The notes under the pieces were generated by a model. The model saw only the letters and a list, made by a program, of their open reading frames with translations. It did not search any database and was not told where the DNA came from. This document shows, piece after piece, positions 13,499 through 51,565 of a DNA stretch of 56,892 bases (its first letter is position 1; every line of letters begins with the position of its first letter). The translations under genes and the position numbers were made by a program. Source of the DNA: a virus; IMG/VR virus record IMGVR_UViG_3300028653_000018, positions 1-56,892 of that record. One strand, written 5' to 3'.

Positions 13499-13674
13499 TT
13501 TCTCTTTTCTCCTTCTTTTTTACAACTTCCTAACGTCCTTAACATCCTTTAAAATGTTAACACCGTTAACAATCAAATAATATTAGCGCATTGATACAGT
13601 ATTCAATTATGAATATACAATCTTTAATTTTCGTATTTATCATCTGATACTCAATTCAATGCAGAAATTCCCCG
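13499..13674 (+). promoter_or_regulatory. Terminator tract and operator-controlled promoter
   Basis: A pyrimidine-rich tract (13500-13525) probably terminates the upstream unit. A TATA-like CTTTAAAATG (13547-13556) is followed at once by the palindrome GTTAACACCGTTAAC at 13556-13570, one of five exact copies in the window. Extra half-sites (TAACGTCC, TTAACATCC) lie just upstream. It controls the beta-helix spike gene. Confidence 0.65.
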
Positions 13675-15099
13675 ATGTACACGCGCGTGAATAATATGTC
13701 TACCCTCGCTCTAACTCCCCCGCTATCCGGATATAGCTCTGCTGGCATTCAGTCGGCATTCGATAAAACGGGAACAAATGCCGGACAAAAACTAAAGTAT
13801 GATGAAGTTCACTTCTCCCCTGGACAATATATCTTAAACTCCAGAATGTATCTCAACTCTGATACAAAAATAACATGTGATCCTGGAGTTATATGGAAGC
13901 TCGAAAAAACTAATTTTGGGCAACTGCCTTTGGTGGGGCAAAAAGAATCTACTATTTCGGGTTTGGATATTTCAGGCATTCAGTATGACGGTCAATATCC
14001 TATTCAGACAGATACTCCTAATGATCACGGTCTTGGTTATGGCAATTTCATCAATCTCTTGAATGTGAAAAACTCAAAGTTCCATGACCTGAAAGGAGGC
14101 CATAACGAAGGGGATATCCTGCGCCTGCAGGGTGGAGACAACATTGAAATTTATAACTGTAACATTACAGAGCCGGGCCATACGTTCACATTTTTGCAGG
14201 CTATGAGCAATGTATCAGCCCATGACAATTACATCGAAATGAGGGCTGACAATGCATTCAGAGTCAAGGAAAGCAATAGAGTTAAGGTTTTCAGAAATCG
14301 AATAAAGGGAACTCCGCAGGCTTATTCAGATGGAATCCAGATTGAACGCATCAGTGAAAATCCTCTTTTCAGCATTGAGATTTTCGAGAATATTATAACA
14401 GATACCTACGGTCCTGCTATCAATGCATTCTCTACTCTTCCTAATAATAACTCTGTAAATATCCACAACAATCTAATTTCGAGATGCGGGCAGATGCCCC
14501 ATGATAACAAGCTTCCTGGTGTCGGAGGAATTATTTTCGATGGAATAGAGGACATTAAAATCTGGAATAATACGATAGTTGACTGTTTTGGGTATGGTGT
14601 TGCAGCCACACAATATATCGCTCAGGCATCTACAGCAAAGAATCTTAAGGCTCTTGTTCAGCGCAATATCATTACAGGTACTAAAGTTTCTAATTATGCA
14701 GGGTCAATGTCAGGTTCTGGAATAGCTGATCTTTCTGCAGGTAGATATTCGATAACCTCACAGGAAAATTGTCTTTTCAAGAATCTTACTCCTTACTGTA
14801 AGATAACTTCTGCTTCTGATATTTACGTTGATCCGCTTTTTACTGATCCTACAAACGGAGATTATCACCTGCAGAGTAAGCCCAGTATGCCCTGCGTTTT
14901 TCATGATTATGAGCTCGGGGCTTTTAATGGAGTTACGGGAGCTGCAGAATTCATTCCTCCAGATCTACCATGTGTGTGTATCCCACAGGGAGACGAAGAA
15001 AAATTGAAAGTTCTTTGTCAAGAATTGTTAGCTTCCGGCTTTATTAAGTCATTCGATTGTTTAAAATTTTCACATGTTTCAAAAGATTTTGAAGTTTGA
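13675..15099 (+). CDS. Right-handed beta-helix (tailspike-like) protein
   Basis: 474 residues without signal peptide. Residues about 60-400 show the ladder of short beta strands and Asn-rich turns typical of parallel beta-helix proteins (pectate-lyase/tailspike fold), with repeated NxIxG and DGIQI-type rungs. The C-terminus (about 420-474) is Cys-rich (CVCIPQGDEEKL) and may trimerise or attach to the tail. A depolymerising or adhesive tailspike is likely, and a free enzyme is possible. ATG 13675 is used; ATG 13696 is an alternative. Confidence 0.7.
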   Translation: MYTRVNNMSTLALTPPLSGYSSAGIQSAFDKTGTNAGQKLKYDEVHFSPGQYILNSRMYLNSDTKITCDPGVIWKLEKTNFGQLPLVGQKESTISGLDISGIQYDGQYPIQTDTPNDHGLGYGNFINLLNVKNSKFHDLKGGHNEGDILRLQGGDNIEIYNCNITEPGHTFTFLQAMSNVSAHDNYIEMRADNAFRVKESNRVKVFRNRIKGTPQAYSDGIQIERISENPLFSIEIFENIITDTYGPAINAFSTLPNNNSVNIHNNLISRCGQMPHDNKLPGVGGIIFDGIEDIKIWNNTIVDCFGYGVAATQYIAQASTAKNLKALVQRNIITGTKVSNYAGSMSGSGIADLSAGRYSITSQENCLFKNLTPYCKITSASDIYVDPLFTDPTNGDYHLQSKPSMPCVFHDYELGAFNGVTGAAEFIPPDLPCVCIPQGDEEKLKVLCQELLASGFIKSFDCLKFSHVSKDFEV

Positions 15100-26159: not shown

Positions 26160-26410
26160 TTTCTACATATAGACGACGGACAGCCGCAAAAGATGAAAGT
26201 GGATCAGAGTTTACACCATTAAAGAATTACTCTGGTATAGATATCTACGGGGAGCCCCTAAAGATATTTGTTTACTGTATGACTGCGGGTGTATACGCTG
26301 TTATTTTATCATTTTTATATTTATTCGGTTATTTAATTAAAGGAATGTTAACTGGGTTATTTTTTGATTTGTGTTTTATTGTTTATTTTTTTAGGCGGTG
26401 GAAAGAATGA
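26156..26410 (+). CDS. Two-pass membrane protein
   Basis: 84 residues: a polar N-terminal half, then two hydrophobic stretches (about 40-58 and 62-80) ending RRWKE. Overlaps the next gene by ATGA. Unknown; a membrane protein in an early operon could act in superinfection exclusion, but there is no direct evidence. Confidence 0.55.
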   Translation: MISTYRRRTAAKDESGSEFTPLKNYSGIDIYGEPLKIFVYCMTAGVYAVILSFLYLFGYLIKGMLTGLFFDLCFIVYFFRRWKE

Positions 26411-26805
26411 CCGTTACATCTACTCTGGAACCTCAAACTATCCTGAAATACTGCCGAAAATGTCACGCAAAACTTATGATAACTCAAAATCAAAAATTTG
26501 TAAAATGTGAATGTGGTCAGGAATTCGGGATAACTACCCCTCTATCAGACGATAGCAAAGGATGCGCTGGTGGAATTAAGTTATATTTCCTTCGAAATTA
26601 TAGAGGGATAAGAAGCGATTCTGAAATACTTGACTGCATCCGGAATCTCAGTGTATCTAGTCAAAATAAAATAGCTGATGAACTGGATATGAACGCTACT
26701 ACGCTTATCCGCGTGTTGAGGAGATTAGTGGACGAGAAGAAGATAGAGATTGTTTCTCAGAGGCCTGGGAAGAAGACTGTTTACAGGGTGATAGATTGTC
26801 CCTAA
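26407..26805 (+). CDS. Zinc-ribbon winged-helix regulator
   Basis: 132 residues from ATG 26407. An N-terminal zinc ribbon (CRKCHA...CECGQE) precedes a MarR/TrmB-like winged helix (about 70-130: NKIADELDMNATTLIRVLRR). The recognition helix is the RVLRRL region and the wing follows at KKTVYRVI. It probably binds DNA and controls viral or host promoters. TAATG overlap with the next gene. Confidence 0.65.
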   Translation: MTVTSTLEPQTILKYCRKCHAKLMITQNQKFVKCECGQEFGITTPLSDDSKGCAGGIKLYFLRNYRGIRSDSEILDCIRNLSVSSQNKIADELDMNATTLIRVLRRLVDEKKIEIVSQRPGKKTVYRVIDCP

Positions 26806-29623: not shown

Positions 29624-29825
29624 ATACTCCTCTATCTCTGCTCTCTCTGCTCTCCCCCTTGGTCATGTCCGCTCCCCCACTTTGATCCTACAGAACCTGT
29701 ATTTTGTCCTTACAATATTCGACAGCCTGATTTTAGAGAGGTTGATAGGAGTTGTAGTGATGTGTTAACTATGTTTCACAGCGTTAACATTATAAAATTA
29801 GAGGAACATTATATAAGTGATAATT
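29624..29825 (+). promoter_or_regulatory. Terminator tract and late promoter with spaced operator
   Basis: A long pyrimidine tract (29634-29665) probably ends the early operon. GTTAAC occurs at 29764-29769 and 29783-29788, separated by 13 bases, ten more than the three in the five other copies, one helical turn. TATA-like ATTATAAAA and ATTATATAAG follow. It drives the terminase operon. Confidence 0.6.
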
Positions 29826-30338
29826 ATGGCAGTCCAGAAAAAGAAGAAAGTAAACAGGAATAAAGAATTCCGAAATAATTCGAAAGTTTTTAAGTGGACT
29901 CCATCAAGAATAAAAGCAGCAAAAATGTTATCAACCGGAATATACACGTTTGAAGAAATACAAGACGAAATTCGTATTAAGACGACTACTTTCTGGGAAT
30001 GGAGACAAAGCCCAGTATTTCTTGAAGAAGTGGATAAACTCACGTTAGAATTAAAAGAAGTTACTAAAGCCGGATTGATTCGGGAATGTCTCTACGGACT
30101 TGATAAAAAGCGTAAGTATATCTCAGAAGATAATAAAGCTCATCTTGATTATATAAAAGTGATTGCTGATCTCCAGGGGCTTACTAAACAGAAGATTGAG
30201 CTTGATGCTAACATGAATCATTCTGGTAGTATAGACATTAATAAAATGACAGATGAAGAATTACAGCAGGCTATAGATGACGATCTCAAAAAGCTTATCG
30301 ACGCGGGAATCATACCAAATACTAAAAAGGATGAATGA
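29826..30338 (+). CDS. terS: Terminase small subunit (TerS-like)
   Basis: 170 residues from ATG 29826 (GTG 29817 possible). N-terminal basic helix-turn-helix segment (about 25-65: KAAKMLSTGIYTFEEIQDEI, TTTFWEWRQSP) followed by a helical oligomerisation part and an acidic C-terminus, the plan of TerS. It would recognise the packaging site and load TerL. The 8-base overlap with TerL confirms pairing. Confidence 0.75.
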   Translation: MAVQKKKKVNRNKEFRNNSKVFKWTPSRIKAAKMLSTGIYTFEEIQDEIRIKTTTFWEWRQSPVFLEEVDKLTLELKEVTKAGLIRECLYGLDKKRKYISEDNKAHLDYIKVIADLQGLTKQKIELDANMNHSGSIDINKMTDEELQQAIDDDLKKLIDAGIIPNTKKDE

Positions 30339-31821
30339 GTGGCAACATGAATTAGATATTAGACACGCTCGAACTAACCTTTTAGACTTTACTACCTTCA
30401 CTAAGAAAAATTATAATGTTAATTGGCATCACGAGCTTATATGTAGGGAACTTGGTAAATTTGTTACAGGTATAACCAGACGATTAATTATAAGTGTTCC
30501 TCCACGAAACGGTAAAACTGAATTGGTAAGCCGTAGGTTACCTGCGTTCTTATTTGGTAAAAACCCCGATGCTCAAATAATAGCATGTTCTTATGGAGCT
30601 GACCTGGCACAACATAATAACAGGGATGTCCAAAGAATAATTACTTCTCATGAATACTCTGAACTTTTCCCAGATACATATCTTAATGATTCAAATGTAA
30701 GGACTGATTCACATGGTTCTTATATACGAAATGCTGACACTTTTGAAATTGTAGGATACGCGGGAGCTTATAATTGTGCCGGTATAGGTGGAGCAATTAC
30801 TGGAAAAGGCATGGATTATGGAATAGTTGACGATTATTTCAAAAACCGAGAAGAGGCCGAAAGCCCAACGATGAGGGATAAACTATGGGACTGGTATCAA
30901 GATGTTTTTTCCACTAGGGAAGAAGGAGACGGCTCTATTCTCATTACCGCTACTCGGTGGCACAAAGATGATCTTATAGGCAGGTTGCTAAAGAAGGCCA
31001 AAGAAGATGAAGAAGCGGATCAATGGGAAGTCATCACGCTTCCTGCTTTATCTGAAGAAAATTTAGAACCTTATGATCTAAGGACCGGGCCAGATCAGCC
31101 TCTTTGGCCTTGGAAGTTCTCTTATGAATGGCTAAAAAAGAAAAAAGCAAATCTAACCGTGTATTCCTGGTTATCACTTTATCAGCAACGACCTGTTGCG
31201 GTTTCCGGGAATTTAATAAACGAGAGCCAGTTTAAATATTGCAGTATATCAGGAGATTTATTAACACTTGGTCCCGGAGTAGAAAATAAAAAATATATTC
31301 TTCCCCAATGCAGGATCTTTCAAACATGTGACCCGGCTGCATCAGAAAGAAGTTCAGCCGATTACTTCGCTTTAGGAACATGGGTACAAACCCCACTAAA
31401 CGAACTTGCTCTTATTGACCTTATTCATACACGTATGGAACAACCAAAACAGGTTCCTCTATTCAAACAGCAATACGAATTATATCATCCTATTACACAG
31501 TATGTAGGAACAAAGGGACTTGGTATAGGTTTATATCAATCTCTTAAGAATGAAGGGTTACCAGTTGCAAAAATAGAAGAAGACACTGATAAAGTTTCCA
31601 GGTTTATAACAGCGTGCGATAGAATAGCCGCAGGAACTATTTATTTTAGTGAGACTCTTCCAAAGTTACCTGATTATAAACTCGAACTTCTTGATTTCCC
31701 GAAGGGGGAGCATGATGACAGAGTAGATATTACAAGCATGGCAGCTTTGGTAGTTATTGAACATCCATTCCCTCTGACTAATTTCAGCCTTTCAAGCATA
31801 GCAACAACAAAAAGCCGATAA
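30331..31821 (+). CDS. terL: Terminase large subunit (TerL)
   Basis: 496 residues from ATG 30331. Walker A SVPPRNGKTE at about 55-64; Walker B-like YGIVDDYF at about 163-170; the coupling motif TATRWHKDDLIGRL near 207-220. The C-terminal nuclease begins QTCDPAASERSSADYFALG. It powers DNA entry and cuts concatemers. The start inside TerS is supported by overlap; a longer frame from 30277 is less likely. Family: HK97/Mu-type tailed-virus motor. Confidence 0.92.
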   Translation: MNEWQHELDIRHARTNLLDFTTFTKKNYNVNWHHELICRELGKFVTGITRRLIISVPPRNGKTELVSRRLPAFLFGKNPDAQIIACSYGADLAQHNNRDVQRIITSHEYSELFPDTYLNDSNVRTDSHGSYIRNADTFEIVGYAGAYNCAGIGGAITGKGMDYGIVDDYFKNREEAESPTMRDKLWDWYQDVFSTREEGDGSILITATRWHKDDLIGRLLKKAKEDEEADQWEVITLPALSEENLEPYDLRTGPDQPLWPWKFSYEWLKKKKANLTVYSWLSLYQQRPVAVSGNLINESQFKYCSISGDLLTLGPGVENKKYILPQCRIFQTCDPAASERSSADYFALGTWVQTPLNELALIDLIHTRMEQPKQVPLFKQQYELYHPITQYVGTKGLGIGLYQSLKNEGLPVAKIEEDTDKVSRFITACDRIAAGTIYFSETLPKLPDYKLELLDFPKGEHDDRVDITSMAALVVIEHPFPLTNFSLSSIATTKSR

Positions 31822-31935
31822 TTTCCTTTTTTTATCACTTTTTCTTTAATTTTCCTCAAAAATACATACATTTTTATCCAAAAACCGCTTATTTTATATT
31901 GTTAACGCTGTTAACATTGAAAATCAGAGGTATTA
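31822..31935 (+). promoter_or_regulatory. T-rich terminator and operator-promoter
   Basis: Poly-T tract after TerL (31825-31850) is a likely archaeal terminator. A TATA-like ATTTTATATT (31891-31900) abuts GTTAACGCTGTTAAC (31901-31915), an exact copy of the recurring palindrome. AGAGGTATTA precedes ATG 31936. Confidence 0.65.
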
Positions 31936-32081: not shown

Positions 32082-33326
32082 TTGGATACACTGAATGCAG
32101 CTGTCACAGTTCCACAAAGCAACAATATTAAATTAGCTGCTGCTGCCGGAGTTCTTTATAAAAAAGAAAATCCTACTTCTTTTGGAGATTATGTTAATTT
32201 TGATACAGTAAACAGGTTCAACAGATATCAACAGCTTATCAAGAGCACTCCTTATGCTTCCATCGGAATGAAGAAGCTAAAAACTTCTCTCACTAAAGGT
32301 ATGGACTTCGACGGCTCAAAAAAGTCACTTGTCAAAGAGTTTCAAACATGGGCTAAAAGGACTAATTTTATCGGGCAAACTCAAACAGTTGCAGGTAATC
32401 TTTTCAGGGATGGTATTTTTGCAGGGCTGACCACCGGAACAGTTGACAAACTAAAGCTTAGACCTCTTTTAATGGGCTATACTACTATTTTGCCCGAAGG
32501 TGTAGCCAGTGGTTCCAATCCAGGTACTATAATGCAGCCAGAGGCAGCACAGTTCGTAGTTAATGAAGGTGGGGTTGGAACATTAAAAGAGATTGCATAC
32601 TCGGCTGAGAAAGTTGTGTACGGTGTCGTTGACGAATGGGATTCTTTGCAGGAGGATCTTAGACAACGGCTTACATGTGGGCTTTATGGGGAAAGTCTGG
32701 TAGATCCCATAGAACTGAGTATTCGGTATCTTCACATTATCAATCAAGGCTACGTAGAGTATGTCAGAAAATACGGCATGGGTCGTTATGTCTACTCTTT
32801 CCCGTTTGCTGAAGCAATGTTCGAGAAAGGATTGCTTACATGGGAAAAGTTCCAGGCAGAGATAACAGACTGGATGGAGAAGAACAAATACCTCAGCCAA
32901 AACGAGGATCTTGTAGGTATTGTCAAAGCAACTCCAGTAGATGCAATGGGCTCTCTTGATGTCATGCAGTTTAAGACATCACTAGAAACAGACATTCAAT
33001 TAGGTTTTTTACAGTCTGATTTAAGCATGGGAGATTCAAAAGGCTCAACTTATGCAGCTGGATATGTTTCTGAAAATTCTCGCATGGTAGTTCTTGAGAA
33101 TCTTCAAATTAATCTTTCTAATGTTATTAACGATTTTATTAACAGAAGATTAGTCATGCAGGGCAAGAGCCCTGATTCAGTAGAAGTCATTTTTGATGAA
33201 CTCAGCCTGCCTCAGATGACCGCTTCTGAGGTTCAGGAATGGGCTTTGAATGGAATAATAGACAATGATGAAGCCAGAGAATGGGGTGGATTTCCTACGA
33301 AGGTTCAACAGGACGTGACAGTATGA
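32082..33326 (+). CDS. Portal protein
   Basis: 414 residues from TTG 32082 (GAGGTAAT before it). N-terminal RYQQLIKSTPYASIGMKKLK and the mid alpha/beta core, plus a C-terminal half with SDLSMGDSKGSTYAAGYVSE and FDELSLPQMTASEVQEWALN, the pattern of phage portal proteins. It forms the dodecameric DNA gate. Position after terminase and before the head morphogenesis gene fits. Shorter than many portals. Confidence 0.75.
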   Translation: MDTLNAAVTVPQSNNIKLAAAAGVLYKKENPTSFGDYVNFDTVNRFNRYQQLIKSTPYASIGMKKLKTSLTKGMDFDGSKKSLVKEFQTWAKRTNFIGQTQTVAGNLFRDGIFAGLTTGTVDKLKLRPLLMGYTTILPEGVASGSNPGTIMQPEAAQFVVNEGGVGTLKEIAYSAEKVVYGVVDEWDSLQEDLRQRLTCGLYGESLVDPIELSIRYLHIINQGYVEYVRKYGMGRYVYSFPFAEAMFEKGLLTWEKFQAEITDWMEKNKYLSQNEDLVGIVKATPVDAMGSLDVMQFKTSLETDIQLGFLQSDLSMGDSKGSTYAAGYVSENSRMVVLENLQINLSNVINDFINRRLVMQGKSPDSVEVIFDELSLPQMTASEVQEWALNGIIDNDEAREWGGFPTKVQQDVTV

Positions 33327-33345: not shown

Positions 33346-33360
33346 GTTAACACTGTTAAC
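33346..33360 (+). promoter_or_regulatory. Operator GTTAACACTGTTAAC
   Basis: Exact copy of the 15-bp palindrome, just downstream of an AT-rich TATA-like stretch (33328-33345) and 37 bases before ATG 33397. Confidence 0.65.
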
Positions 33361-33396
33361 AGTTGATAATTTCCCTAAATGGGATGGCGGGACAAT

Positions 33397-36300
33397 ATGA
33401 AGAAATTCTATTTTTTCTTTATTGTTGCAATTTTTGTGATGAGTTGTGGAGTTGCATCTGCTTCGGTTACGTATGTTTCATGTTTGACTGACACAGGTAA
33501 TCACCTTGATTCAATCAATAATAAAATAGTGATCACGAATGAACACGGAAGAAATTTAACTTGGCTAGAAGGACAGCTAAACAATCAAACACTATTGCGA
33601 AATTCAGGTAAAACATTTTATCTAAATTCATCTATGACGTTGGATAACTCTGATTTTTATATCAATGATTCAGATTGCAACGTTATTTACATGTCTAATC
33701 AAGTAAACGGTATCCGATATGGTCAAGGCGGGTTCTTGGGTGGCGGATCATTGTATGTCAATAATATAACAGCTTATTCATGGGATTATAACACTTCAAC
33801 GGTTCCAGACTGTTTTTCTCCTTCTTATAGTCCATATAATCAAGCTGGGTTTGTCTGTGATGGAGGGAATGTTTGGAATTGTACATTCGAAGGAATATAT
33901 GGCATCACAATGAACTCATTACATAACACCGATTTCAATAATATAAAAATGAATAACAGCTACAGTGGATATCATCTAAATAGTTGTTCCAACATGAATA
34001 TCAGTAATGTCAGTATTAGCAACGTGTCTGGTAGTACTGCGTTTATTGCATCACAGAGTCACGACATTCATCTGGAAAACGTTTCTGCATACAATACCAA
34101 AGAAGGTATTATTTTTATTACTTCCACATATAACAGTTCTATGGATAATGTTTCATCGGTTCTGTCGGGATGGGGGGGAGTTGAAGGCAGTAGATCGAAT
34201 AATCTAACTTATACGAATATACGGGTAGATCAAGCAGGTCACGACGGGCTCGATCTGCATCTATGTACGAATGTCTACGTCCATAATGTTACCGTTACGA
34301 ATGGTCAAAATGGCGAAGCAAATGGCATCATCCTATCAAATGGTGGTGAAGACGGAACACTGCATGATATTACCCTTGATGGTGTCTATACCGCAAATAA
34401 GACCGCTATTTCTGATGGTATTACAATAGCAAATGGTGGCACACTTACACCTATAACTAATATTACAATCTCTAATTTCACCGATGACGGACATGCACAG
34501 GGACTAGAAACTGCTGGAGTAGATAACCTTACCGTAATAAACATGACAAGTAAGAATACTACAAATGGATATTTCGGGAATCAGAGAACCAATAACACAA
34601 CATTCATAGATTCTAATTTATCCGGCAGTGCTCATGGAATAGCGTTATTCAATTTGATAAACATCAATTTAATAAATACATATTTTAACAATCAGAGTAT
34701 ATCTTTCCCGAGTACGTGCTCGTATAATACATATTATTATTCAAACGTACGAACACTTGATGGAGACTCAAACCCCATCAACAATGTTGTAATTAGTAGT
34801 AATACAACAACAAAAAACGGTAATGGACTAACACAAACTACATTTTTTACAGACAGTGAGGGGAAATTATACAACTATGGAAACCGTAGTAACTGGCTTG
34901 CAATACCTGAAAAAACTGTCAATAGTTCAGGGACTACTACATATACCAGCAACATAACTGCATCATATCAAGGATCTGCAGTCTCTAAAATCGCAACCCC
35001 TACCACAACATGGTATTCTCCGCTTCCATCCATTTTACAAAGTGCGTATTTAGATTTCAAATTTGCTAGTTTTGCCGCTAGTGTCGATGGTCAAACATAT
35101 GCTACTATACAAGCAGCAATAAACGCAGCAAGCCAAGGGCAGACTGTTTATGTTTATCCAGGTAGTTATATAGAAAATATCATAGTAAACAAATCAATAA
35201 CAGTAGAAGGTATATCAGGGAATTCAGAAGATGTAATATTAAAATCTCCTAGCGCATCCTCAACTATAGAAATGACAGCAACCGGAGCCACAATAAAACA
35301 CATTTCCGCAAATGATAACTCATTTACTTCAGGAACAGGAGTAAAAATAACATCAGATAATTGTATAATCGAAGATTGTGCTTTTAAGATGAATTCTGTA
35401 TATTCAATATGGGACAGGGACGCACATAATACACAAGTAAAGGGATGTTATGTCTACAGTGGATCAAACGCAAAAGGTATTTTTATAGACGATTCTGATT
35501 TTTCACATGACACGTTTAATATTACAGTCACAAACTGTACCATATGGGGCGGAACTGAAAACATAAGAGACAGTTTTGGAAATAGCAACACATTCACAGA
35601 TAATTATATAGAACTCGGAATAAATCTATTTGGCGGCAGTTCAAACACTTTCAAAAATAATATATTTGCTTTGAGCAAAGTTCACTCCGATCAGATATTG
35701 CATCTTGAGGCATCCACAGACAATAATATAATTAACAATGTTTTCATGTTCGGTGCATCTAAAATAGATTATGGTGGTTCATGCACAGGTAACATGTTTT
35801 CTCAAACTCCTGCAACTGGGGCAGGAATAGGGGGATCTGCAAAAATCGGTGGTAACATATGGACTACTCAAAGTTTTACAGATTCTAACAATGACGGATT
35901 TGCGGATTCTGCGTATACTGTTTCTGCCGGAATGTCTGCAACAGATAATTACCCTGTGGTCTATAATATTTCAACTGTTTCCAGTGGTTCTGTTTTGAGT
36001 CCGACATTCATAGCTCCAACATATACGGCGTTATCATGGACTCAAAACAATGATCCAAACTTCGTAAAATATATTCTATATCGTGGATGGGCTGCAACCG
36101 GAAGATCAAATTATAAAGTTTTTGAAAGTTCCGATCGTTCAGTATTGACATATACTGATTCTAGCCCTGGTTTTTCAGCAGGTAGAAGACCATATTATAC
36201 CCTCGAAACCCAATACAGTAATGGAACCTCTTATTATTCAAGTGTAGAATCTTGGTCAATACACCACACTCAGAAAAAAATATGGGTAGAGGGAGACTCT

Positions 36301-37950
36301 ATCAGCACACATCCATATTTTGACAATCCAACGAGTTTAGGATGGGTAGATCAATTTGAATCTAACTATGTGATTCCGGCAGGTTGGAGTTTAGATTGTA
36401 CCGCAGTATCTGGTAAAACTGTGAATACATCTAATTCTCAGCTTCAGGAATATTCACAAACTTATGATAATGAAGTATTTATTACTGAAATCGGAGTCAA
36501 TGACCATCTTGTAGATAACAGGGATGCGAATGCCTCATATTCAGATGTCTACAACCAGACTAATTATATGGCTGTTAGGGGTTCAGTAACTTACTGGATG
36601 CTGATCATGCCGGACAACGAAAACAACATATTCCAAAAAACATTTAACTGGAATGTAATTAGACACCATCCAGTGAATACAACTATAGTAAATACATATG
36701 ATAGTTTGGATTCCGTCATTGAAAATGGCAATTTCGATGATTATAACCTTACAAACGAGTTAGGCGGTTCAGTGCACCCAAATACTATAGGTGGTGGACT
36801 GATAGCAGATAAGGTTTTTAGATTGTTATGTATGGGTGGCACAATTCAAAACGAAACATACTGTCCGAGAAGCGGACCGTTTACAACTCCAACAATCGTT
36901 TCTAAGAATCCAAAATATTCACAAATAAAATATGATGGAAGCACAACAACATTCAATGCAAATACTTCAACTTCCACTGATTCAGCTTGGTATATTAACG
37001 ATATGTTTACAAGATTGGATAAGAGTACGTCAACTCCACAGTTGCCTCTAGCAGTAAAAAGTTCAGATTATACTATCTCAATGAGGGCAATGAATCCATC
37101 TAATTATGATGCATATTCAGAAGTCGATTGGGTTCCTGTACCACCGATTTCAGATTTCATTGCAAGTCCTACAAGCGGGGAACACCCTGTTACTGTTGCG
37201 TTTACGGATCAGTCAATTGGACCAACCTCTTGGTTATGGAACTTCGGAGATGGAACGACTGGCACAACTCGAAATGTGACTCATACTTACTCTGTAGCTG
37301 GAAATTATAATGTTAGCCTGACAACTACAAACGAAGATGGGTCAGATAGTGAGGTAAAAACCAACTATGTTATTGTTACCGCTGTCCCAGATGCAAATTT
37401 TTCAGCAAACCGAACTACAATTACACAGGGTCAGCCAATACAGTTTAATGATACAAGTTTAGATAATCCCACTTCATGGGCGTGGACATTCGGAGACGGG
37501 AACACCAGCACGGATAAAAACGCTACACATACTTACTCTGTAGCTGGAAATTATAATGTTACATTAACTGTAACAAACTCGTATGGTTCAAATTCCACGG
37601 TAAAAACAAATTACATAAACGTGAAAAATTCACCTCCAGTTGCCGCGTTTTCAGCCGATCCATTAATAGGAAATGCAACAACTGTTATAAGATTTATTGA
37701 CAGCTCAACTGGGAAAATTGATTCTTGGGCTTGGGACTTTGAAAATGATGGTGTTATAGATTCAACTGTTCAAAATCCGGTTAAAGCGTATACAGCAGAA
37801 GGAGTTTATACAGTTAATCTAACTGTAACTAATGACGGTGGTAGTGATTCAGAAACAAAAATTGGATATATACTTGTGAGCAAGTCAAACGGAGCAAACC
37901 AAGTCAATTATTTCTATTGGCAATTTTGGTCATTTTTCAGGAGATGGTAA
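33397..37950 (+). CDS. Secreted GDSL/beta-helix/PKD surface protein
   Basis: 1517 residues from ATG 33397 (longer start at 33379 possible). A signal peptide (about 1-20, ending ASAS) leads to a long right-handed beta-helix (about 45-850). A GDSL/SGNH hydrolase domain follows with EGDSIS at about 966, GVNDH near 1033 and SVHPN near 1127 (Ser, Asn/Asp and His of the triad). Three PKD domains (about 1255-1485) carry WNFGDG/WTFGDG motifs. The C-terminus ends WSFFRRW. A signal peptide in a virion structural cluster suggests export to the infected-cell surface; a role in altering host surface glycans, adhesion or exclusion fits. It may instead be a tailspike. GDSL enzymes are esterases. Confidence 0.8.
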   Translation: MKKFYFFFIVAIFVMSCGVASASVTYVSCLTDTGNHLDSINNKIVITNEHGRNLTWLEGQLNNQTLLRNSGKTFYLNSSMTLDNSDFYINDSDCNVIYMSNQVNGIRYGQGGFLGGGSLYVNNITAYSWDYNTSTVPDCFSPSYSPYNQAGFVCDGGNVWNCTFEGIYGITMNSLHNTDFNNIKMNNSYSGYHLNSCSNMNISNVSISNVSGSTAFIASQSHDIHLENVSAYNTKEGIIFITSTYNSSMDNVSSVLSGWGGVEGSRSNNLTYTNIRVDQAGHDGLDLHLCTNVYVHNVTVTNGQNGEANGIILSNGGEDGTLHDITLDGVYTANKTAISDGITIANGGTLTPITNITISNFTDDGHAQGLETAGVDNLTVINMTSKNTTNGYFGNQRTNNTTFIDSNLSGSAHGIALFNLININLINTYFNNQSISFPSTCSYNTYYYSNVRTLDGDSNPINNVVISSNTTTKNGNGLTQTTFFTDSEGKLYNYGNRSNWLAIPEKTVNSSGTTTYTSNITASYQGSAVSKIATPTTTWYSPLPSILQSAYLDFKFASFAASVDGQTYATIQAAINAASQGQTVYVYPGSYIENIIVNKSITVEGISGNSEDVILKSPSASSTIEMTATGATIKHISANDNSFTSGTGVKITSDNCIIEDCAFKMNSVYSIWDRDAHNTQVKGCYVYSGSNAKGIFIDDSDFSHDTFNITVTNCTIWGGTENIRDSFGNSNTFTDNYIELGINLFGGSSNTFKNNIFALSKVHSDQILHLEASTDNNIINNVFMFGASKIDYGGSCTGNMFSQTPATGAGIGGSAKIGGNIWTTQSFTDSNNDGFADSAYTVSAGMSATDNYPVVYNISTVSSGSVLSPTFIAPTYTALSWTQNNDPNFVKYILYRGWAATGRSNYKVFESSDRSVLTYTDSSPGFSAGRRPYYTLETQYSNGTSYYSSVESWSIHHTQKKIWVEGDSISTHPYFDNPTSLGWVDQFESNYVIPAGWSLDCTAVSGKTVNTSNSQLQEYSQTYDNEVFITEIGVNDHLVDNRDANASYSDVYNQTNYMAVRGSVTYWMLIMPDNENNIFQKTFNWNVIRHHPVNTTIVNTYDSLDSVIENGNFDDYNLTNELGGSVHPNTIGGGLIADKVFRLLCMGGTIQNETYCPRSGPFTTPTIVSKNPKYSQIKYDGSTTTFNANTSTSTDSAWYINDMFTRLDKSTSTPQLPLAVKSSDYTISMRAMNPSNYDAYSEVDWVPVPPISDFIASPTSGEHPVTVAFTDQSIGPTSWLWNFGDGTTGTTRNVTHTYSVAGNYNVSLTTTNEDGSDSEVKTNYVIVTAVPDANFSANRTTITQGQPIQFNDTSLDNPTSWAWTFGDGNTSTDKNATHTYSVAGNYNVTLTVTNSYGSNSTVKTNYINVKNSPPVAAFSADPLIGNATTVIRFIDSSTGKIDSWAWDFENDGVIDSTVQNPVKAYTAEGVYTVNLTVTNDGGSDSETKIGYILVSKSNGANQVNYFYWQFWSFFRRW

Positions 37951-37953
37951 TAA

Positions 37954-38505
37954 ATGATCGTAGGAGAAATAAAAACAGGCCAAAATATAAAATCATTTTT
38001 TAGAGCAATTAAAGAAGATTTTTCAAACGATGAAAAAGTAAGTTTGGGAGATCCAGTAATTATAAAATGTTCTGCTAACGGAGCAACCCCTGTAAATATG
38101 ACGGGGGCAACATACGCTTTTGATTCCGATATGAATCAATGGCTACTAGATGGACCGAGTTCATTCGTTCCTTCTTATGGTTTTTTGGATATCACGATAA
38201 AAGGTACAAATATTGATTATGTAATGATAAGATTAGCAGTTTCAGGGGGAGGAGGCGGAGGCATGGGAGTATTAACAAAAGATTACACAGTATCCGGAAA
38301 TGATATTCAGTTCACTGATACAAGTATAGACAAAAGAGACATTGTAAAAATAAGAGGAATTTCTAGTAACCTAGATATTTACGACTGCAATCGTATCACA
38401 GCAGGCAAAAATGATATAACCCTATCGGGTACAACCCCAGGATTGTTTACATGTGATTATCATATTCCAGCAGGTGAAACCCTTAAAATTTGGTTAGAGT
38501 CATAA
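37954..38505 (+). CDS. Beta-rich protein of unknown function
   Basis: 183 residues, mainly beta strands with a Gly-run linker (SGGGGGGMG at about 90-98), so two small domains. No signal peptide. It sits between the surface protein and the head morphogenesis gene, whose ATG overlaps its stop (TAATG). It could be a head fibre, a decoration or a chaperone for the large neighbour. Confidence 0.5.
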   Translation: MIVGEIKTGQNIKSFFRAIKEDFSNDEKVSLGDPVIIKCSANGATPVNMTGATYAFDSDMNQWLLDGPSSFVPSYGFLDITIKGTNIDYVMIRLAVSGGGGGGMGVLTKDYTVSGNDIQFTDTSIDKRDIVKIRGISSNLDIYDCNRITAGKNDITLSGTTPGLFTCDYHIPAGETLKIWLES

Positions 38506-39407
38506 TGCTCCTCAATTCAAAAGAGATTCTTAACATAGAATCTCGCTTTTCCCTACTTTTCGAACGAACTTTTTTCAAAGGTATCTCAGGACAGCCAGCC
38601 TCATCCTATAAAAAACAGGTTTCTTACTGGTTTAAGTCAAAAACCTTTCAAAAACAGATAGATAAAATTATTGATGATATTTATCTTTTTTCAGTATCTT
38701 TTTCAGATAAGAAAATCAATAAATCACTTAAAGCCTCAGTAAACCCAACTAGGCACATCCTCAGTGCAGCAGATGATAACCCTTTAATCCTCACAGAAGA
38801 GGCTATTACACAGGCTGAAGGTCTGGCAGGTGAAGTAGTAGACTCTATTGTTACCATGCTCAAGGATGATAACCTGTATAAGGAAGCCCCAGCAACTTTA
38901 GAGAGTAGGGTCCGTGAACTATGGGGGGGAGAGAAGTACAGGGCTACACGATTTGTAAGGACATTTACAGCTGATGTGGCTACCTCTTCGAGCTTACATC
39001 GATATTCTCAGCAAGGAATTGAAGAGTATCAGTACTATGCTCTTATAGATGGTAAGACATCACCTATATGCAGGGCCTTACATGGCACTATTTTTAAGGT
39101 AGGTTCTCCAGAAGCGAGTAAGTTTTCTCCCCCAAAACATTTTCACTGTCGCAGTTCTATCATTCCAGTGACTATGTTTTCTGATGTATCTGATTCAATG
39201 CGCTATGAAAACAGAGACTTCTCAAAGCCGATGAATCAGGACTTTTCAATTTCAGGAAAAGAAGTTGATTCTAAAGTTATTAAAAAAGTATTCAAAGATA
39301 TTAACACTTTCAATGAGAATTACCGGATTGATAAGTTTATTTTGGATGAAGATCTGGAAAAGAGATATACACGGATTGGTATTGGTATTGAATCACAGCC
39401 TACATGA
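38505..39407 (+). CDS. Mu gpF-like head morphogenesis protein
   Basis: 300 residues from ATG 38505 in a TAATG overlap; the TTG at 38490 is less likely. The C-terminal half bears the gpF signature YYALIDGKTSPICRALHGTI and PPKHFHCRSSIIPVT, with conserved Asp, Cys, His and Cys. The N-terminal half is helical. Such proteins aid early head assembly and sit next to the portal gene in many tailed viruses. After the TGA stop the same frame stays open for 19 Lys-rich codons. Confidence 0.85.
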   Translation: MLLNSKEILNIESRFSLLFERTFFKGISGQPASSYKKQVSYWFKSKTFQKQIDKIIDDIYLFSVSFSDKKINKSLKASVNPTRHILSAADDNPLILTEEAITQAEGLAGEVVDSIVTMLKDDNLYKEAPATLESRVRELWGGEKYRATRFVRTFTADVATSSSLHRYSQQGIEEYQYYALIDGKTSPICRALHGTIFKVGSPEASKFSPPKHFHCRSSIIPVTMFSDVSDSMRYENRDFSKPMNQDFSISGKEVDSKVIKKVFKDINTFNENYRIDKFILDEDLEKRYTRIGIGIESQPT

Positions 39408-42135: not shown

Positions 42136-43971
42136 ATGTACCCTCTCTTTGCTCTCTCCCTCATTCTAATTTTAATATGTTCAGGGATAGCGAGTGCAGG
42201 GGATGAAACACAGATCAACAACGCACTTCAAGCAGGTGGAGAAGTTCATCTTTCATCAGGCATCTATGAAATAACAGGACCCTTAATCATTCATTCGGAT
42301 ACAGTTCTGATAGGAGAGCCCGACACAGTTATTAAAGTATCCTCTTCGTCTTCTCAGTGGTTTACAGGCTCAACCGGGATAATAAGCTGTAAAGAATCAG
42401 TAAAAAATGTAGAAATATCCGGCTTTCAAATAGATGGTAATTTAGGCTCACTCCCCGCAAGTTACGCGAACACTCCCGGCCATGATAAAGACTGTGAAAG
42501 GTGTATAATTTTAGGGGGATACACTAACGATTACGCTGACAATATCTCAATTCACGATATGAAGCTCTATAACTCCTTCTCTGATGGAATGCAGATAAGA
42601 TTTGCTAAGAATTCAAAGGTTTATAACAATTTTATAAGCAATTGCCAACACGAAGGTTTTTTTGGAACATGTCTTGAAAATAGTGAAATATATAATAATA
42701 AAATAGCTGGAATCACTAGCGACTGTTTAAGATTAGATAACTGTGTAAACTGTAAAGTTAGTGACAATGTTCTATTTTCATATGATGGAACGAATTTAAA
42801 TGGTGCTTACGCTCATGGGGAGAATGGTCTTCAAGTAGGGGACGCAGGAAGCTCACATGGTTACGATGCAAGTAATAAACCTACTACTACTGCTAACATC
42901 GAAGTTTATGGTAATACATTCGCTAACAATGGTTTAAAGGCAATCACGGGGAGCATGGGAGACAATGTTTATATTCACGATAATAAATTTGTTGGAAAAG
43001 AGCAGCTTGAAACAATGGGAATTCCTGTTGATATTTCAGACAGTAATCCGGCAAGTGTTGAGAGGAGTGAGAAAGTATTCTCCTCTATCTTCGACATTTT
43101 AAATTGTAATTTTTCAACTACTGCTCTGATTCCTCAGTATAACCAGATATCAAGCACTGAAAACTGGCAGAAGAAAGGACAGAACACAGAAGCAACCTTT
43201 TCAATTGATGGATTCAGAAATATTTCTGAAATCGAAGGGGTTGAATATATGCCTGGAAAAGCTCAAGATAATGTTATTGTAAATTATCAGACTCGAAATG
43301 ATGCAGCGTTTGGAGCAGGGCAGACCTCAACTATTTCTTATGAAGAAAATAACACAACTTTAAATGTTTCACTAACAGTTCAGACTTCCTGGATAACAAA
43401 AAGCTCAAGTTCGATAACAGTTTTAGGCAAAAGAATAACAATTCCTTCAATTAAAACACAAAGCGAAAGTGAAGTGTACTCTGCAAGTGTACAAGTGCCC
43501 CAGAGTTTTCCAAAAACAGAAGACGTCAAAGCAGAAGTAACCTATTATAATAACTCGTATAATCCTCACTCAATTGTAAGCTTGACAAATGCCTGGGGTA
43601 TAGTTCAGGAAGATTATTCTTACAATGGCTCAGAAGCAAATCATTTTAAGCTCATTGGAGAGGTTTCTAAAAAAGACACTGGCTTATCTTATGTCAATTA
43701 CTCAAGAATTTCAATGTGGAAGAGCACAGACAGCCAGATAAGCGGACATGGGAATGAGTTGTATATTACAGGAAAGTTTAACAGGTCATTACTGAATGTT
43801 TCTGTTGAAACACCTTATGAGAAGGTTCAGATAAAAGAAGTTAATGTTACAGAATTTCCAGATGAAAGCGGATTGATCTTAAATCCTTCATTGTGGGCTT
43901 TTGTAGGAACGTTAAGTATTTTCGTAGTATTTATTTATAAGAACTTAAAAAGAGTAATAAGAAAATGGTAA
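42136..43971 (+). CDS. Membrane-anchored beta-helix surface protein
   Basis: 611 residues. Signal peptide (about 1-21, ending ASAG), a right-handed beta-helix (about 30-300), a beta-sandwich-rich middle, and a C-terminal membrane segment (about 588-605) followed by KNLKRVIRKW. So it is expected on the outside of the host cell, anchored by its tail. Related in design to archaeal S-layer-associated beta-helix proteins, probably host-derived. May remodel the surface of infected cells or block further adsorption. Confidence 0.7.
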   Translation: MYPLFALSLILILICSGIASAGDETQINNALQAGGEVHLSSGIYEITGPLIIHSDTVLIGEPDTVIKVSSSSSQWFTGSTGIISCKESVKNVEISGFQIDGNLGSLPASYANTPGHDKDCERCIILGGYTNDYADNISIHDMKLYNSFSDGMQIRFAKNSKVYNNFISNCQHEGFFGTCLENSEIYNNKIAGITSDCLRLDNCVNCKVSDNVLFSYDGTNLNGAYAHGENGLQVGDAGSSHGYDASNKPTTTANIEVYGNTFANNGLKAITGSMGDNVYIHDNKFVGKEQLETMGIPVDISDSNPASVERSEKVFSSIFDILNCNFSTTALIPQYNQISSTENWQKKGQNTEATFSIDGFRNISEIEGVEYMPGKAQDNVIVNYQTRNDAAFGAGQTSTISYEENNTTLNVSLTVQTSWITKSSSSITVLGKRITIPSIKTQSESEVYSASVQVPQSFPKTEDVKAEVTYYNNSYNPHSIVSLTNAWGIVQEDYSYNGSEANHFKLIGEVSKKDTGLSYVNYSRISMWKSTDSQISGHGNELYITGKFNRSLLNVSVETPYEKVQIKEVNVTEFPDESGLILNPSLWAFVGTLSIFVVFIYKNLKRVIRKW

Positions 43972-44801: not shown

Positions 44802-45146
44802 ATGAGTAAATTAAAAAAGTTAACATGGAGTTTTGCAGGAATTCTTCTTACTGCTGGCTCGGCATTGGCAGAAGGAGACAACAACGTAACAAGCAATCTT
44901 GGGCCGGCTTCGGGAGTCGCAGGTGATCTTATGTTTTATCTTAAATGGGGATCTATTTTCGTCGCTATTGCTACGGTCCTCATCCTTTGGATAAGACATA
45001 ACCTAGCCGCACATAGTAAAAAAGTAGGTGATGTTTTACAGATCAGAGATGATATGAAACAATGGTTTATAATGGGTCTGGCTGTCATAGTTAGTTTTAT
45101 CTTTTTATTTCAGTATATAATACCACAATTAGATAAATTCATCTGA
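44802..45146 (+). CDS. VirB2-like pilin/membrane protein
   Basis: 114 residues: signal peptide (about 1-23, ending SALAE), a short outer loop, two membrane segments (about 45-64 and 88-110) with a basic loop between. This matches the plan of VirB2/TrbC-type pilins of type IV secretion. Followed at ten bases by the VirB6-like gene. Call by topology and context. Confidence 0.5.
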   Translation: MSKLKKLTWSFAGILLTAGSALAEGDNNVTSNLGPASGVAGDLMFYLKWGSIFVAIATVLILWIRHNLAAHSKKVGDVLQIRDDMKQWFIMGLAVIVSFIFLFQYIIPQLDKFI

Positions 45147-45155
45147 GGCTCTATT

Positions 45156-46061
45156 ATGAAAAGAGTCTATGCTATTCTTTTTTTTCTTTTGTTCTTTTCT
45201 TACCCTGTTTTAGCTGCTGATTATTCAGCAACTGATGTAGGAGCAGGGATGGTTTCAGCTGGAATAGGGCAGTTTTTTAAAGACCAGATAAATGGTATGT
45301 ATTCAAGTTTTCAAAATAATACAGCCATTAATAGCCAATTTGGAACTGCTAGAGGGGCACTATACACAGTCATTACATACGTTCCTGACCCATACGCTGA
45401 CCCAACAATAAAATCTATATTCTTGAACTACAGAGCGCTTTCAATATTCTTTGTTGTTCTCTTTATAATTGGGGAGTTTATGAATCGGAACTTAGCACGG
45501 ATGAAAGTATCTGAAAACGTATTTGGAAATAGGGATTTATCTACCTCTAAATTCGTTGGAGGGGTAGCAATGTGTTTTCTAGGACTCTTTGCTAACTTCA
45601 TCTTTATGTTTGCATTGCAAGTGATAAGAGTATTAAGTCAATTCGCAATGTCTAATGTCCTTGATTCTATTGCTCCAAGCCCTGATAACCTTATACTGTA
45701 TGTTATGATGGCTATCTGTGATTTCACAGTATTCATATTCTTCATAATCAGGTTTTTTATAATATATGCAGTGGCAGTTCTGTGTACGGTTCTTGCTGTC
45801 CTGTTAGTTCCAGAATCGTCAAGGGACTTTGCTAAAAAGTCAATAGATCACATAGTCAGGATTTTACTCTTGCAGCCAGTGGCTATTTTCTTTACTTGCC
45901 TGGGGATTTTAGTAATGAAAAACCTGCCTGTAGCATTACAACCATTTGGATATATTGGACTTACAGTGTTTGTTTTTCTGGTTTGTCTTTATATGCTAAT
46001 TGGAGATTTTGAATTCATTAAGAAGGGTGGAAAAGTATTAGCAAAGGTGATTGCAGCATGA
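45156..46061 (+). CDS. VirB6/TrbL-like polytopic membrane protein
   Basis: 301 residues: signal peptide (about 1-20, ending VLAAD) and five to six membrane segments from about residue 90 on, in two groups (90-175, 185-295). Typical of VirB6/TrbL channel proteins. Gene order and the VirB4-like ATPase downstream support a conjugation-type channel. ATGA overlap with the next small gene. Confidence 0.5.
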   Translation: MKRVYAILFFLLFFSYPVLAADYSATDVGAGMVSAGIGQFFKDQINGMYSSFQNNTAINSQFGTARGALYTVITYVPDPYADPTIKSIFLNYRALSIFFVVLFIIGEFMNRNLARMKVSENVFGNRDLSTSKFVGGVAMCFLGLFANFIFMFALQVIRVLSQFAMSNVLDSIAPSPDNLILYVMMAICDFTVFIFFIIRFFIIYAVAVLCTVLAVLLVPESSRDFAKKSIDHIVRILLLQPVAIFFTCLGILVMKNLPVALQPFGYIGLTVFVFLVCLYMLIGDFEFIKKGGKVLAKVIAA

Positions 46062-46195
46062 AATATCAATTTACTCTTACAATAGTAGGTGAATGTAGTG
46101 ATACAATCACCATAACACTAGAAGAATACAGAGCGCTTACATTGATAATGAATAGTTGGTTAAAAGACGAGGGGAGGGTTATACAAGATGTCTAA
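46058..46195 (+). CDS. Small module protein
   Basis: 45 residues, beta then helix (YQFTLTIVGECSDTITITLE...). Overlaps both neighbours by four to eight bases. Unknown; its placement suggests a link with the channel proteins. Confidence 0.5.
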   Translation: MKYQFTLTIVGECSDTITITLEEYRALTLIMNSWLKDEGRVIQDV

Positions 46196-47036
46196 CACTC
46201 CTTACGAACCTCCGAGGCCACCAAAGACGATAACTAAAATTCAAGATGATCAATTCTTAGACTTTTCAAGTCCGTTTACATGGGTTATGATGGTCTTTAT
46301 CTCCGTTGCACTCGTGATCATCTTTGAACTTGGAAATGTACACACATTAGTATTCCAGATAGTTACTGTCCTTGCCTTAGTTTTATGGCTTGTAATATGG
46401 ATTAAATACTTTTCATCTTCTGAAAAAGTAACTAAGCAATTTGCAGTATTTCATTTCAAAGTTAATGATGTGAAAGGCCAGCATGTAATTAATAAATTTG
46501 AAGTTCCAGTTTCGTTCTTACAGAAATTAGTGCCTATTGTAGCCATTCACGAAGGAGGAATAATCGAGTTTACTGAGAAAAAATACGGAATTTTAATGGA
46601 AACTTTTCCAGTTAGAATTTCAGATGAAGAAAGAAAAGAACATGAAAAGAGGATCGAGAAGGTAGTGAATGGTATTCCTGCAAATACCCACTTCAAAACG
46701 ATAGCATGTAGTAGATTAGAGCCTAGAAAACCTTTGATGCAGTACCTTTTAGACATTACAAGTAAGTCTACTGGAAATAAAGCAACTGATCTACATCTTG
46801 CGAGCCTTTACAATAAAGTAGCAGGTGATGACACGCCTGTCATTTCATGGAAATATTACGCTTTTCAGAGTCTTGGAGAACAACGTAGTTTAGAGGCTGC
46901 CAGAATTCAGTATGGTGCGACGGTACCTGGTCTACTTAAAAACATGCGAGGCGCGAAATTAGATCCCATCGTCGTAGAAGATCCTCAAGAAATTGCTTAT
47001 GCGTATCGTACTTTATTTTCGGAGATGGTAATATGA
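46188..47036 (+). CDS. Two-pass membrane protein of secretion-like module
   Basis: 282 residues: a Pro-rich start ([17 protein letters not shown]), two closely spaced membrane segments (about 28-70), then a soluble cytoplasmic domain of about 210 residues. This arrangement recalls VirB3/PrgI-type partners of VirB4 ATPases, though with a much larger C-terminal part. Overlaps the YopX-like gene by four bases. The C-terminal domain is not recognised. Confidence 0.5.
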
Positions 47037-47440
47037 GAGAAATAAAATTTAGAGTATTTGATAAAAATATACCTGCTAACTGTACTGACAAGGAACTCGA
47101 TAATCCATCTGGAGCAATGGTTGTTGAATGGGATTACATTGTTAATTCTTCTTATCTAATTGGTGGTCTGGCTGGAAGATATCCAATTATGCAGTTTACC
47201 GGACTGAAAGATAAAAATGGAAAAGAAATTTATGAAGGTGATATTCTAAAATACGACGATCCATATAAACAGAAAGCTCACACGTTCCCATATGTTATCA
47301 AATGGGATTCTGAAGAAGCGTGTTTCGACTGCACTAATGAAATGAATTTCATGCTCGGTTCCGTGTGGAAGAATATGGAAGTTATAGGCAATGTATGGGA
47401 GAATCCGGAACTTTTGGGGGCAATAAATGAAACTGTTTGA
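47033..47440 (+). CDS. YopX-like protein, second copy
   Basis: 135 residues starting [12 protein letters not shown], with [18 protein letters not shown] in the centre and a [11 protein letters not shown] end. Paralogue of 13091. Its insertion inside the secretion-like operon suggests that it is an accessory. Overlaps the neighbours by four and 14 bases. Confidence 0.85.
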
Positions 47441-50893: not shown

Positions 50894-51415
50894 TTACTTC
50901 ACATTAATATTTTTACAAGTTGGAGAGCACCAACAAGAACCAACCTGAACCTTTAGACAAACAGTGAAATAACCTTTCGAAGCTGGAATACTCACGGTAA
51001 CCCCAGGCTTACTGTTTTTTAGGATATATCCGGTAAGATGTGTTCTGCCAGCATCCGAATACTTTTTAATACTCCATTGGTCAGCTACATGTTTACAGAC
51101 AGTTGTATCTTTGAACTGGAGTTTTCCGCTTACAATGGAAGCAGCGAAAGCTGGAGTACAACAGTTAGCGCATGTAGTACTTTTTGTAGTATTACAGGTT
51201 GAACAGGTTCCAGTACTACACGTTCCTGAAGAAGCGGTTGTCTGATTAACACATTTCGTTAAGGGGCAGTTATCAGTACATCCTGCACAATTACAAGATC
51301 CAGACTGACAAGCTGTACACGTACAGGTACATTTCCCTGCAGTACATGCGGCAGATGCTGAAGAAACACAAAGCATCATCACTAATAGAGGGATTATGAA
51401 ATATTTGGGTTTCAT
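50894..51415 (-). CDS. Secreted very Cys-rich protein
   Basis: 173 residues: signal peptide (about 1-22, ending ASAA), a Cys-rich block (about 23-85, with CTAGKCTCTCTACQSGSCNC and many CxxC/CxC pairs), and a beta domain (about 88-173) with more Cys at the end. Roughly 20 of the first 90 residues are Cys, so disulfides or metal are likely. Its start follows the operator at 51421-51435 by six bases. No family recognised. Confidence 0.65.
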   Translation of the reverse strand: MKPKYFIIPLLVMMLCVSSASAACTAGKCTCTCTACQSGSCNCAGCTDNCPLTKCVNQTTASSGTCSTGTCSTCNTTKSTTCANCCTPAFAASIVSGKLQFKDTTVCKHVADQWSIKKYSDAGRTHLTGYILKNSKPGVTVSIPASKGYFTVCLKVQVGSCWCSPTCKNINVK

Positions 51416-51565
51416 ATACAGTTAACAGCGTTAACAAATTATAAAATTATATTCATTTATGATAAGATTGTTCGAATGTTATATTAATCTCATAACGTTT
51501 TTAGATCATTGTAAAGTTATATTAATAGATATATTTAATATTGTTAACAACGTTAACATTAGAAA
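51416..51565. promoter_or_regulatory. Divergent promoters with two operators
   Basis: GTTAACAGCGTTAAC (51421-51435) lies six bases from the leftward Cys-rich gene, between it and a minus-strand TATA-like ATTTTATAAT. GTTAACAACGTTAAC (51543-51557) lies nine bases before ATG 51566, after GATATATTTAATA. Two copies of the palindrome on each side of one intergenic region are strong evidence for common control. GTTATATTAAT is also repeated (about 51478 and 51508). Confidence 0.7.

Follow-up and report, generated by a model that had tools for sequence, protein, structure and literature searches.

What would a tailed virus do with a very large, apparently exported protein that is encoded among its head genes? 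This question is raised by IMG/VR record IMGVR_UViG_3300028653_000018, a viral stretch of 56,892 bases that was analysed over its full length (hereafter, the window) and that contains, behind a portal-like gene, an open frame for a protein of 1517 residues (hereafter, the giant). The window has a terminal direct repeat of 106 bases (1-106 and 56786-56891, 99% identical) and is therefore close to a complete genome. The sequence points to a tailed virus of a methane-making, Methanosarcina-type archaeon; the host is suggested by the Methanosarcina relatives of most modules, by the matches of the PKD domains to Methanosarcina plasmid proteins, and by the presence of a disaggregatase-related gene. 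In our judgement, there is about an even chance that the giant is a host-derived, virus-exported protein that is made together with the head genes and remodels surface glycans in the coat of the infected cell. We infer, with good support, that it is exported and not carried in the virion, and the host origin of its parts is strongly indicated. Its substrate, its catalysis, the anchoring by its C-terminal tail and the benefit to the virus, as proposed below, are what we infer beyond that.

The preliminary description of this locus, made from its letters alone, had listed a protein of 1.5 kilo-residues with a signal peptide, a beta-helix, three PKD domains and an SGNH hydrolase triad. The size is real: the coding region is one open frame, with an in-frame ATG at 33379 as an alternative start that would add six residues. 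The N-terminus (MKKFYFFFIVAIFVMSCGVASAS, read by eye) is indeed signal-peptide-like. Of the domains (Table 1), the beta-helix was recovered as a NosD match and as a weak Pfam Beta_helix match in the first 560 residues, and the PKD domains gave a very strong match, but the triad is incomplete, as discussed below. The N-terminal part of the NosD-type helix resembles a separate exported gene (29662-31809) in contig G174, a related virus described below. A linker separates this helix from the SGNH-like domain, and the PKD domains are 40-45% identical to those of Methanosarcina plasmid proteins. An S-layer (surface layer) lattice protein was considered and rejected: beyond a match of its PKD domains to the surface layer protein chain 1l0q, the giant showed no match to an S-layer domain. 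As to relatives of the whole protein, a peptide-pattern search of IMG/VR retrieved no direct viral homologue, the phage records gave nothing but short matches in the PKD range, and a genome scan with the whole protein gave no match.

Placement at the cell surface, which had been proposed earlier, is supported by the signal peptides kept in the corresponding proteins of three viruses (the window, G174 with 767 residues, and L237 with 611 residues), by secreted surface relatives in methanogens (L230 and others), which also have such peptides, and by an excess of N-x-S/T sequons. The sequon test covered the giant, the G174 protein, the cellular relatives and the window proteins named here. The giant contains 53 sequons, against 37.1 ± 5.0 in shuffles and 35 copies of the mirror motif; the G174 protein contains 35 where 18.6 are expected, and the cellular relatives are likewise enriched. 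No enrichment was found in the window's tape measure, major capsid protein (MCP), portal, terminase, Mu-F, VirB4-like and tail proteins. This fits an exported, N-glycosylated surface protein. However, other exported proteins of the window (the one encoded from 42136, the 173-residue protein and the GH46 protein) are not enriched either; thus, the enrichment cannot serve as a general sign of export. Part of the enrichment of the giant could be inherited from the host gene, yet the G174 protein has a different ectodomain. A tail spike or depolymerase of the virion was rejected as a candidate on account of the signal-peptide-like N-terminus and the host-surface relatives.

The N-terminal helix comes closest to a Methanosarcina sp. 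Ant1 (G002) protein, with 48% identity over 545 residues; this protein carries a signal peptide and a dockerin, and its gene adjoins one for a cohesin-domain protein. The more distant relatives in cells are dockerin/Ig proteins of about 1100 residues, several of them encoded next to glycosyltransferase and flippase genes. The HxGxDxH motif (H282, G284, D286 and H288 in the giant) shows no variation among the eight family members compared (five cellular, three viral). A tree of these eight places the giant beside the cellular Ant1 sequence (support 99/99) and away from the remaining two viral sequences, which requires genes to have passed between cells and viruses more than once. The giant has the full-length domain homology, the signal peptide and the invariant motif of what we define here as the Methanosarcina family of secreted HxGxDxH beta-helix proteins; it lacks the dockerin that is present in L230, L233, L234 and L235. 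The cellular proteins, from polysaccharide loci (L230, L233-L236), resemble the giant also in their richness in sequons, but they end in Ig, cohesin and dockerin domains, whereas the giant continues into NosD, SGNH and PKD domains and an aromatic tail and is encoded within a head gene cluster. A search of solved structures with the helix profile gave chance-level matches only (pectate lyase, E 0.25). If there is one conserved catalytic centre in the giant, HxGxDxH would be the best candidate for it, likelier than the SGNH part.

Such closeness to a host protein, with 48% identity, could also mean that the gene is a passenger (moron), recently picked up from the host at a tolerant insertion site and without any further role in the virus. 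Other proviruses do carry other cargo near portal or TerL, i.e., a NosD protein (L196), an Mtd-like gene (L197) and transporter genes (L192). Nevertheless, the motif is conserved, the operator is common with the portal and head genes, and the cassette architecture is kept in three viruses (see below), and we consider a mere passenger very improbable.

Among 238 Methanosarcinia genomes, only three proteins match the SGNH-like domain. These proteins (L198, L199 and L200) are secreted and, like the giant, have a signal peptide and a NosD-type helix followed by the SGNH or GDSL domain. The two that were scanned match Pfam GDSL_2 (PF13472; E 3e-21 and 1e-16), and a hidden Markov model built from all three finds residues 950-1145 of the giant with an E-value of 1.7e-13 in a search of that one protein. 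The Pfam GDSL models gave no match on this domain of the giant, and scans of IMG/VR with the domain found nothing. Blocks I, II, III and V align with those of the cellular proteins. Block I is present as GDSIS at 966-970, with Ser968 in the nucleophile position, and the oxyanion-hole blocks II and III are kept as VSGKT at 1004 (Gly1006) and GVND at 1033 (Asn1035). In block V, the cellular proteins keep Asp-x-x-His, whereas the viral copy, which adds PKD domains, has kept His1127 and has Gly1124 in the Asp position three residues before it. Thus, the family homology stands and the complete triad does not, and the domain is best taken as a homologue of the cellular GDSL proteins without the status of a proven hydrolase. 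Some members of the SGNH/GDSL family work with a Ser-His dyad, and any activity of the viral domain may therefore be reduced or lost. De-esterification of surface glycans, another element of the preliminary description, has become less secure, with the catalytic Asp lost and the SGNH part absent from the cassettes of both related viruses. Spreading of cells and a block to superinfection, which that description also offered, are possible roles.

The gene is connected to the structural genes by an operator. The sequence GTTAACNNNGTTAAC occurs exactly at five sites, each upstream of a gene start (Table 1). When up to two mismatches are allowed, 16 copies are found against 2.9 expected, a number reached in none of 100 shuffles, and no other spaced 6-bp dyad is as frequent in the window. 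An AT-rich, TATA-like sequence stops directly before most copies, and the position just after such a sequence is where an archaeal repressor would block initiation. Since the portal and head genes have the same operator, expression of the giant together with the structural genes is a reasonable assumption. The operator that had been claimed is thus borne out, and of its claimed tie to late expression the part that is supported is co-expression with the portal and head genes. No repeated operator-like dyad was found in G174. In the early region of the window, a winged-helix protein (26398-26805) is a candidate regulator that may bind the GTTAAC operator.

Relatives of the virus were reached through TerL searches of Methanosarcinia proviruses and viruses. 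G174, a 60-kb contig of a metagenome-assembled genome, is syntenic with the window and shares TerS, TerL, Mu-F, an exported helix protein, conjugation-like genes, head-tail genes, the tape measure and a disaggregatase-like gene. L237 (IMG/VR record G241, 73.5 kb) is also syntenic, and its TerL is 59% identical. Between the gene in the MCP position and the connector, G174 encodes the exported-type protein of 767 residues, which contains three PKD domains and is, in its C-terminus, 41% identical to the giant through the aromatic tail (LNQLYWWIHGYFGPF vs. NQVNYFYWQFWSFFRRW). The same position in L237 is occupied by the exported-type helix protein of 611 residues, with the tail AQIYWWLRSFLWW. The giant gene is followed by a partner gene for 183 residues, homologues of which lie 15 bases after the 767-residue gene in G174 (E 7e-6) and 1 base after the 611-residue gene in L237 (E 8e-8); these E-values come from searches of few sequences picked by position and support the link without being database-wide significances. 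Scans of IMG/VR with the partner found nothing. The aromatic (YW-rich) tail pattern ends only the three cassette proteins among 2483 distinct open reading frames examined, which shows its rarity but is no independent prediction, as the pattern was derived from these proteins. Signal peptide, tail and partner are common to all three viruses; the helix, SGNH and PKD domains are not. In a fourth, unrelated tailed virus (L238), the MCP gene is followed by a gene of the helix family, which overlaps by four bases with the gene for an exported protein whose C-terminus forms a membrane anchor. The arrangement suggests a two-gene cassette with a swapped ectodomain, a plug-in tool for altering the surface of the infected cell. 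It may go further: a swappable exported ectodomain, a virus-specific aromatic tail and a small partner could constitute a viral surface-display system that re-tools the archaeal surface during assembly, with tail and partner as a new sorting or anchoring pair. We regard this as possible rather than probable.

In each of the three viruses, the cassette protein is encoded amid head genes and immediately ahead of the partner, a location that would also suit a virion component, i.e., a capsid decoration or fibre with its C-terminal tail docked on the partner. A parallel exists in the tailed archaeal virus HFTV1, where the turret head carries a polysaccharide-deacetylase-like domain on the turret base protein (PMC12494034). 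The two proteins are alike in having a carbohydrate-deacetylase-type domain; however, that of HFTV1 is a virion protein with a zinc polysaccharide-deacetylase fold, whereas the giant has a signal peptide and an SGNH-like domain. The signal peptides in all versions of the cassette argue against such a head arrangement. The sequon enrichment speaks against it too, as do the signal peptide and membrane anchor encoded by the gene after the helix gene in L238, and the fact that HK97-type heads assemble in the cytoplasm. A place in the virion is therefore unlikely.

Methanosarcina cells can be embedded in methanochondroitin, which the disaggregatase of M. mazei cuts, thereby dispersing aggregates; aggregation protects the cells against a virus (PMC12369344). 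In the explanation that we prefer, the remodelling of surface glycans, the giant would be exported via the Sec system during virion production, alongside the expression of the head genes. The N-terminal helix, with its HxGxDxH motif, would act on the exopolysaccharide coat of the host, and the second helix and the SGNH-like domain would add binding or deacylation, the latter possibly weak or lost, given the absent Asp. Retention at the envelope would be due to the PKD stalk together with the short aromatic tail. With the coat loosened or altered, progeny could leave the aggregate without being re-adsorbed to the receptor of the spent cell; dispersal, egress and receptor loss would thus be combined.

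The surface could also be occupied without any catalysis. The giant would then form a binding or shielding layer that masks receptors and blocks superinfection, or that alters the adhesion of the infected or lysogenic cell, and its catalytic-looking parts would merely bind glycan. The replacement of the SGNH Asp by Gly agrees with this, as do the swapping of the ectodomain over a constant tail and partner, and the use of PKD and NosD modules, which are common display modules of Methanosarcina surface proteins. On the other hand, HxGxDxH is fully kept in cellular and viral proteins, a degree of conservation that suits an active centre better than a shield, and the expression of the giant seems tied to that of the head genes, which is late for superinfection exclusion. 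Hence, we hold occupation alone to be rather doubtful. Still, several observations weigh against glycan remodelling. Besides the lost catalytic Asp of the SGNH-like domain, HxGxDxH matches no solved enzyme family, and the AlphaFold2 models are of low confidence (mean predicted local distance difference test score 41 for the beta-helix, modelled from its single sequence, with a strand run at about residues 160-415, and 34 for the partner). The G174 version has neither the family helix nor the SGNH part; the shared function may thus be display or binding and not one reaction. Finally, the partner, which lacks a signal peptide, resembles virion-type proteins, and its gene is tightly linked to that of the giant, a combination that would fit a role in the virion.

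That viruses encode exported envelope proteins derived from their methanogen hosts is already known from the SH-like sheath proteins of tailed viruses of sheathed methanogens (PMC11576556). These resemble the cassette proteins in their viral coding, signal peptide, origin from the host envelope and proposed role in egress, but they are amyloid-type proteins of 159-288 residues, whereas the cassette proteins are beta-helix/PKD mosaics of 611-1517 residues with a partner gene and a tail motif. With its size and its helix and PKD domains, the giant falls outside the SH-like class (150-350 residues, amyloid-like fold) and shares the signal peptide with it. A domain related to the Methanosarcina disaggregatase (PF08480-related) is found in another gene of the virus under the same operator; in a Pfam scan, the giant itself gave no Disaggr_assoc match. 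The literature found among openly searchable papers does not describe the size, composition, tail motif, partner and ectodomain swapping of the cassette proteins.

The gene had been placed between portal and Mu-F genes. The portal side of this holds through similarity to proviral proteins, the assignment being weak by Pfam (Portal_Mu, E 0.043); on the other side, the partner gene intervenes before Mu-F. The disaggregatase-related protein at 13675-15099 is a probable tail spike, i.e., a virion depolymerase for methanochondroitin.

Table 1. Features of the window related to the giant gene, its operator and its neighbours.
Feature	Position	Strand	Basis
Giant exported mosaic protein	33397..37950	+	Single open frame, 1517 residues; domain matches; sequon enrichment
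Signal peptide, about residues 1-23	33397..33465	+	KK n-region, hydrophobic core, small-residue c-region, read directly
N-terminal beta-helix domain, residues 24-560	33466..35076	+	Homology to Methanosarcina sp. Ant1 protein; invariant H282, G284, D286, H288
NosD-type beta-helix, residues 566-824	35092..35868	+	Pfam NosD, match 619-824, E 4.6e-8
SGNH-like domain, about residues 950-1145	36244..36831	+	Profile match; Ser968, Gly1006, Asn1035, His1127 kept, Gly1124 for Asp
Three PKD domains, about residues 1250-1496	37144..37884	+	Pfam PKD_4, E 3.1e-48, above cut-off
Aromatic C-terminal tail NQVNYFYWQFWSFFRRW	37891..37947	+	Similar tail ends the cassette protein of two related viruses
Partner gene, 183 residues	37954..38505	+	No signal peptide, Gly-rich linker mid-protein; starts 3 nt after the giant stop
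Portal-like gene upstream of the giant	32082..33326	+	44-46% identical to proteins after TerL in proviruses L194, L197
Mu-F-like head morphogenesis gene	38490..39407	+	PHROG 115, E 5e-23; 63% to G174
Disaggregatase-related beta-helix protein without signal peptide	13675..15099	+	PF08480, E 5e-25; both related viruses encode homologues in their tail region
Operator GTTAACACTGTTAAC upstream of the giant	33346..33360		Exact copy
Operator upstream of the portal gene	31901..31915		Exact copy
Operator upstream of disaggregatase-related gene 13675-15099	13556..13570		Exact copy
Operator upstream of exported 173-residue gene 50894-51415, divergent	51421..51435		Read from the minus strand
Operator upstream of head gene 51566-52594	51543..51557		Exact copy

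Further exported proteins are encoded elsewhere in the window. A second exported beta-helix protein with a C-terminal membrane anchor (42136-43971) heads a conjugation-like block and has likewise placed homologues in G174, G241, G173 and Ant1. The gene at 16559-17407 encodes a signal peptide and a domain of the GH46 chitosanase family (E 9e-37), probably a secreted lytic enzyme, and that at 50894-51415, on the minus strand, an exported Cys-rich protein of 173 residues, whose size falls among those of viral SH-like proteins; G174 has a comparable exported gene at the corresponding place. The conjugation/type-IV-secretion-like block itself (44802-49931) consists of genes for a small pilin-like membrane protein, a VirB6-like membrane protein, an accessory protein and a VirB4/TraC-like ATPase. 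It is also present in G174 (ATPase about 22% identical), partly in G241, and, at 59-70% identity (42% for the pilin-like protein), in the first 20 kb of Ant1 contig L231, where no head genes were seen. In the provirus L196, the gene that immediately separates TerL from a portal-like gene (L196:5561-8449) encodes an exported NosD protein of 962 residues, with a membrane anchor at its C-terminus. The chromosomal provirus L197 has, between portal and Mu-F like the giant in the window, a gene for a 452-residue protein with a Major tropism determinant N-terminal domain (L197:11728-13086); a template repeat was sought near it and none was found. Its TerL (L197:7018-9546) is a single frame of 842 residues with about 360 extra, intein-like residues between family positions 179 and 183, and a similar split match was found in G207.

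Little is known of how tailed viruses handle the thick sugar coat and the aggregates of Methanosarcina. Two concrete candidates result from this analysis, i.e., a probable disaggregatase-related spike on the side of the virion and a secreted protein that would modify the coat; one operator apparently controls both. New glycan-active enzymes may be represented by the HxGxDxH helix family, and the exchange of the ectodomain over a constant tail and partner points to a general means by which viruses alter the archaeal cell surface.

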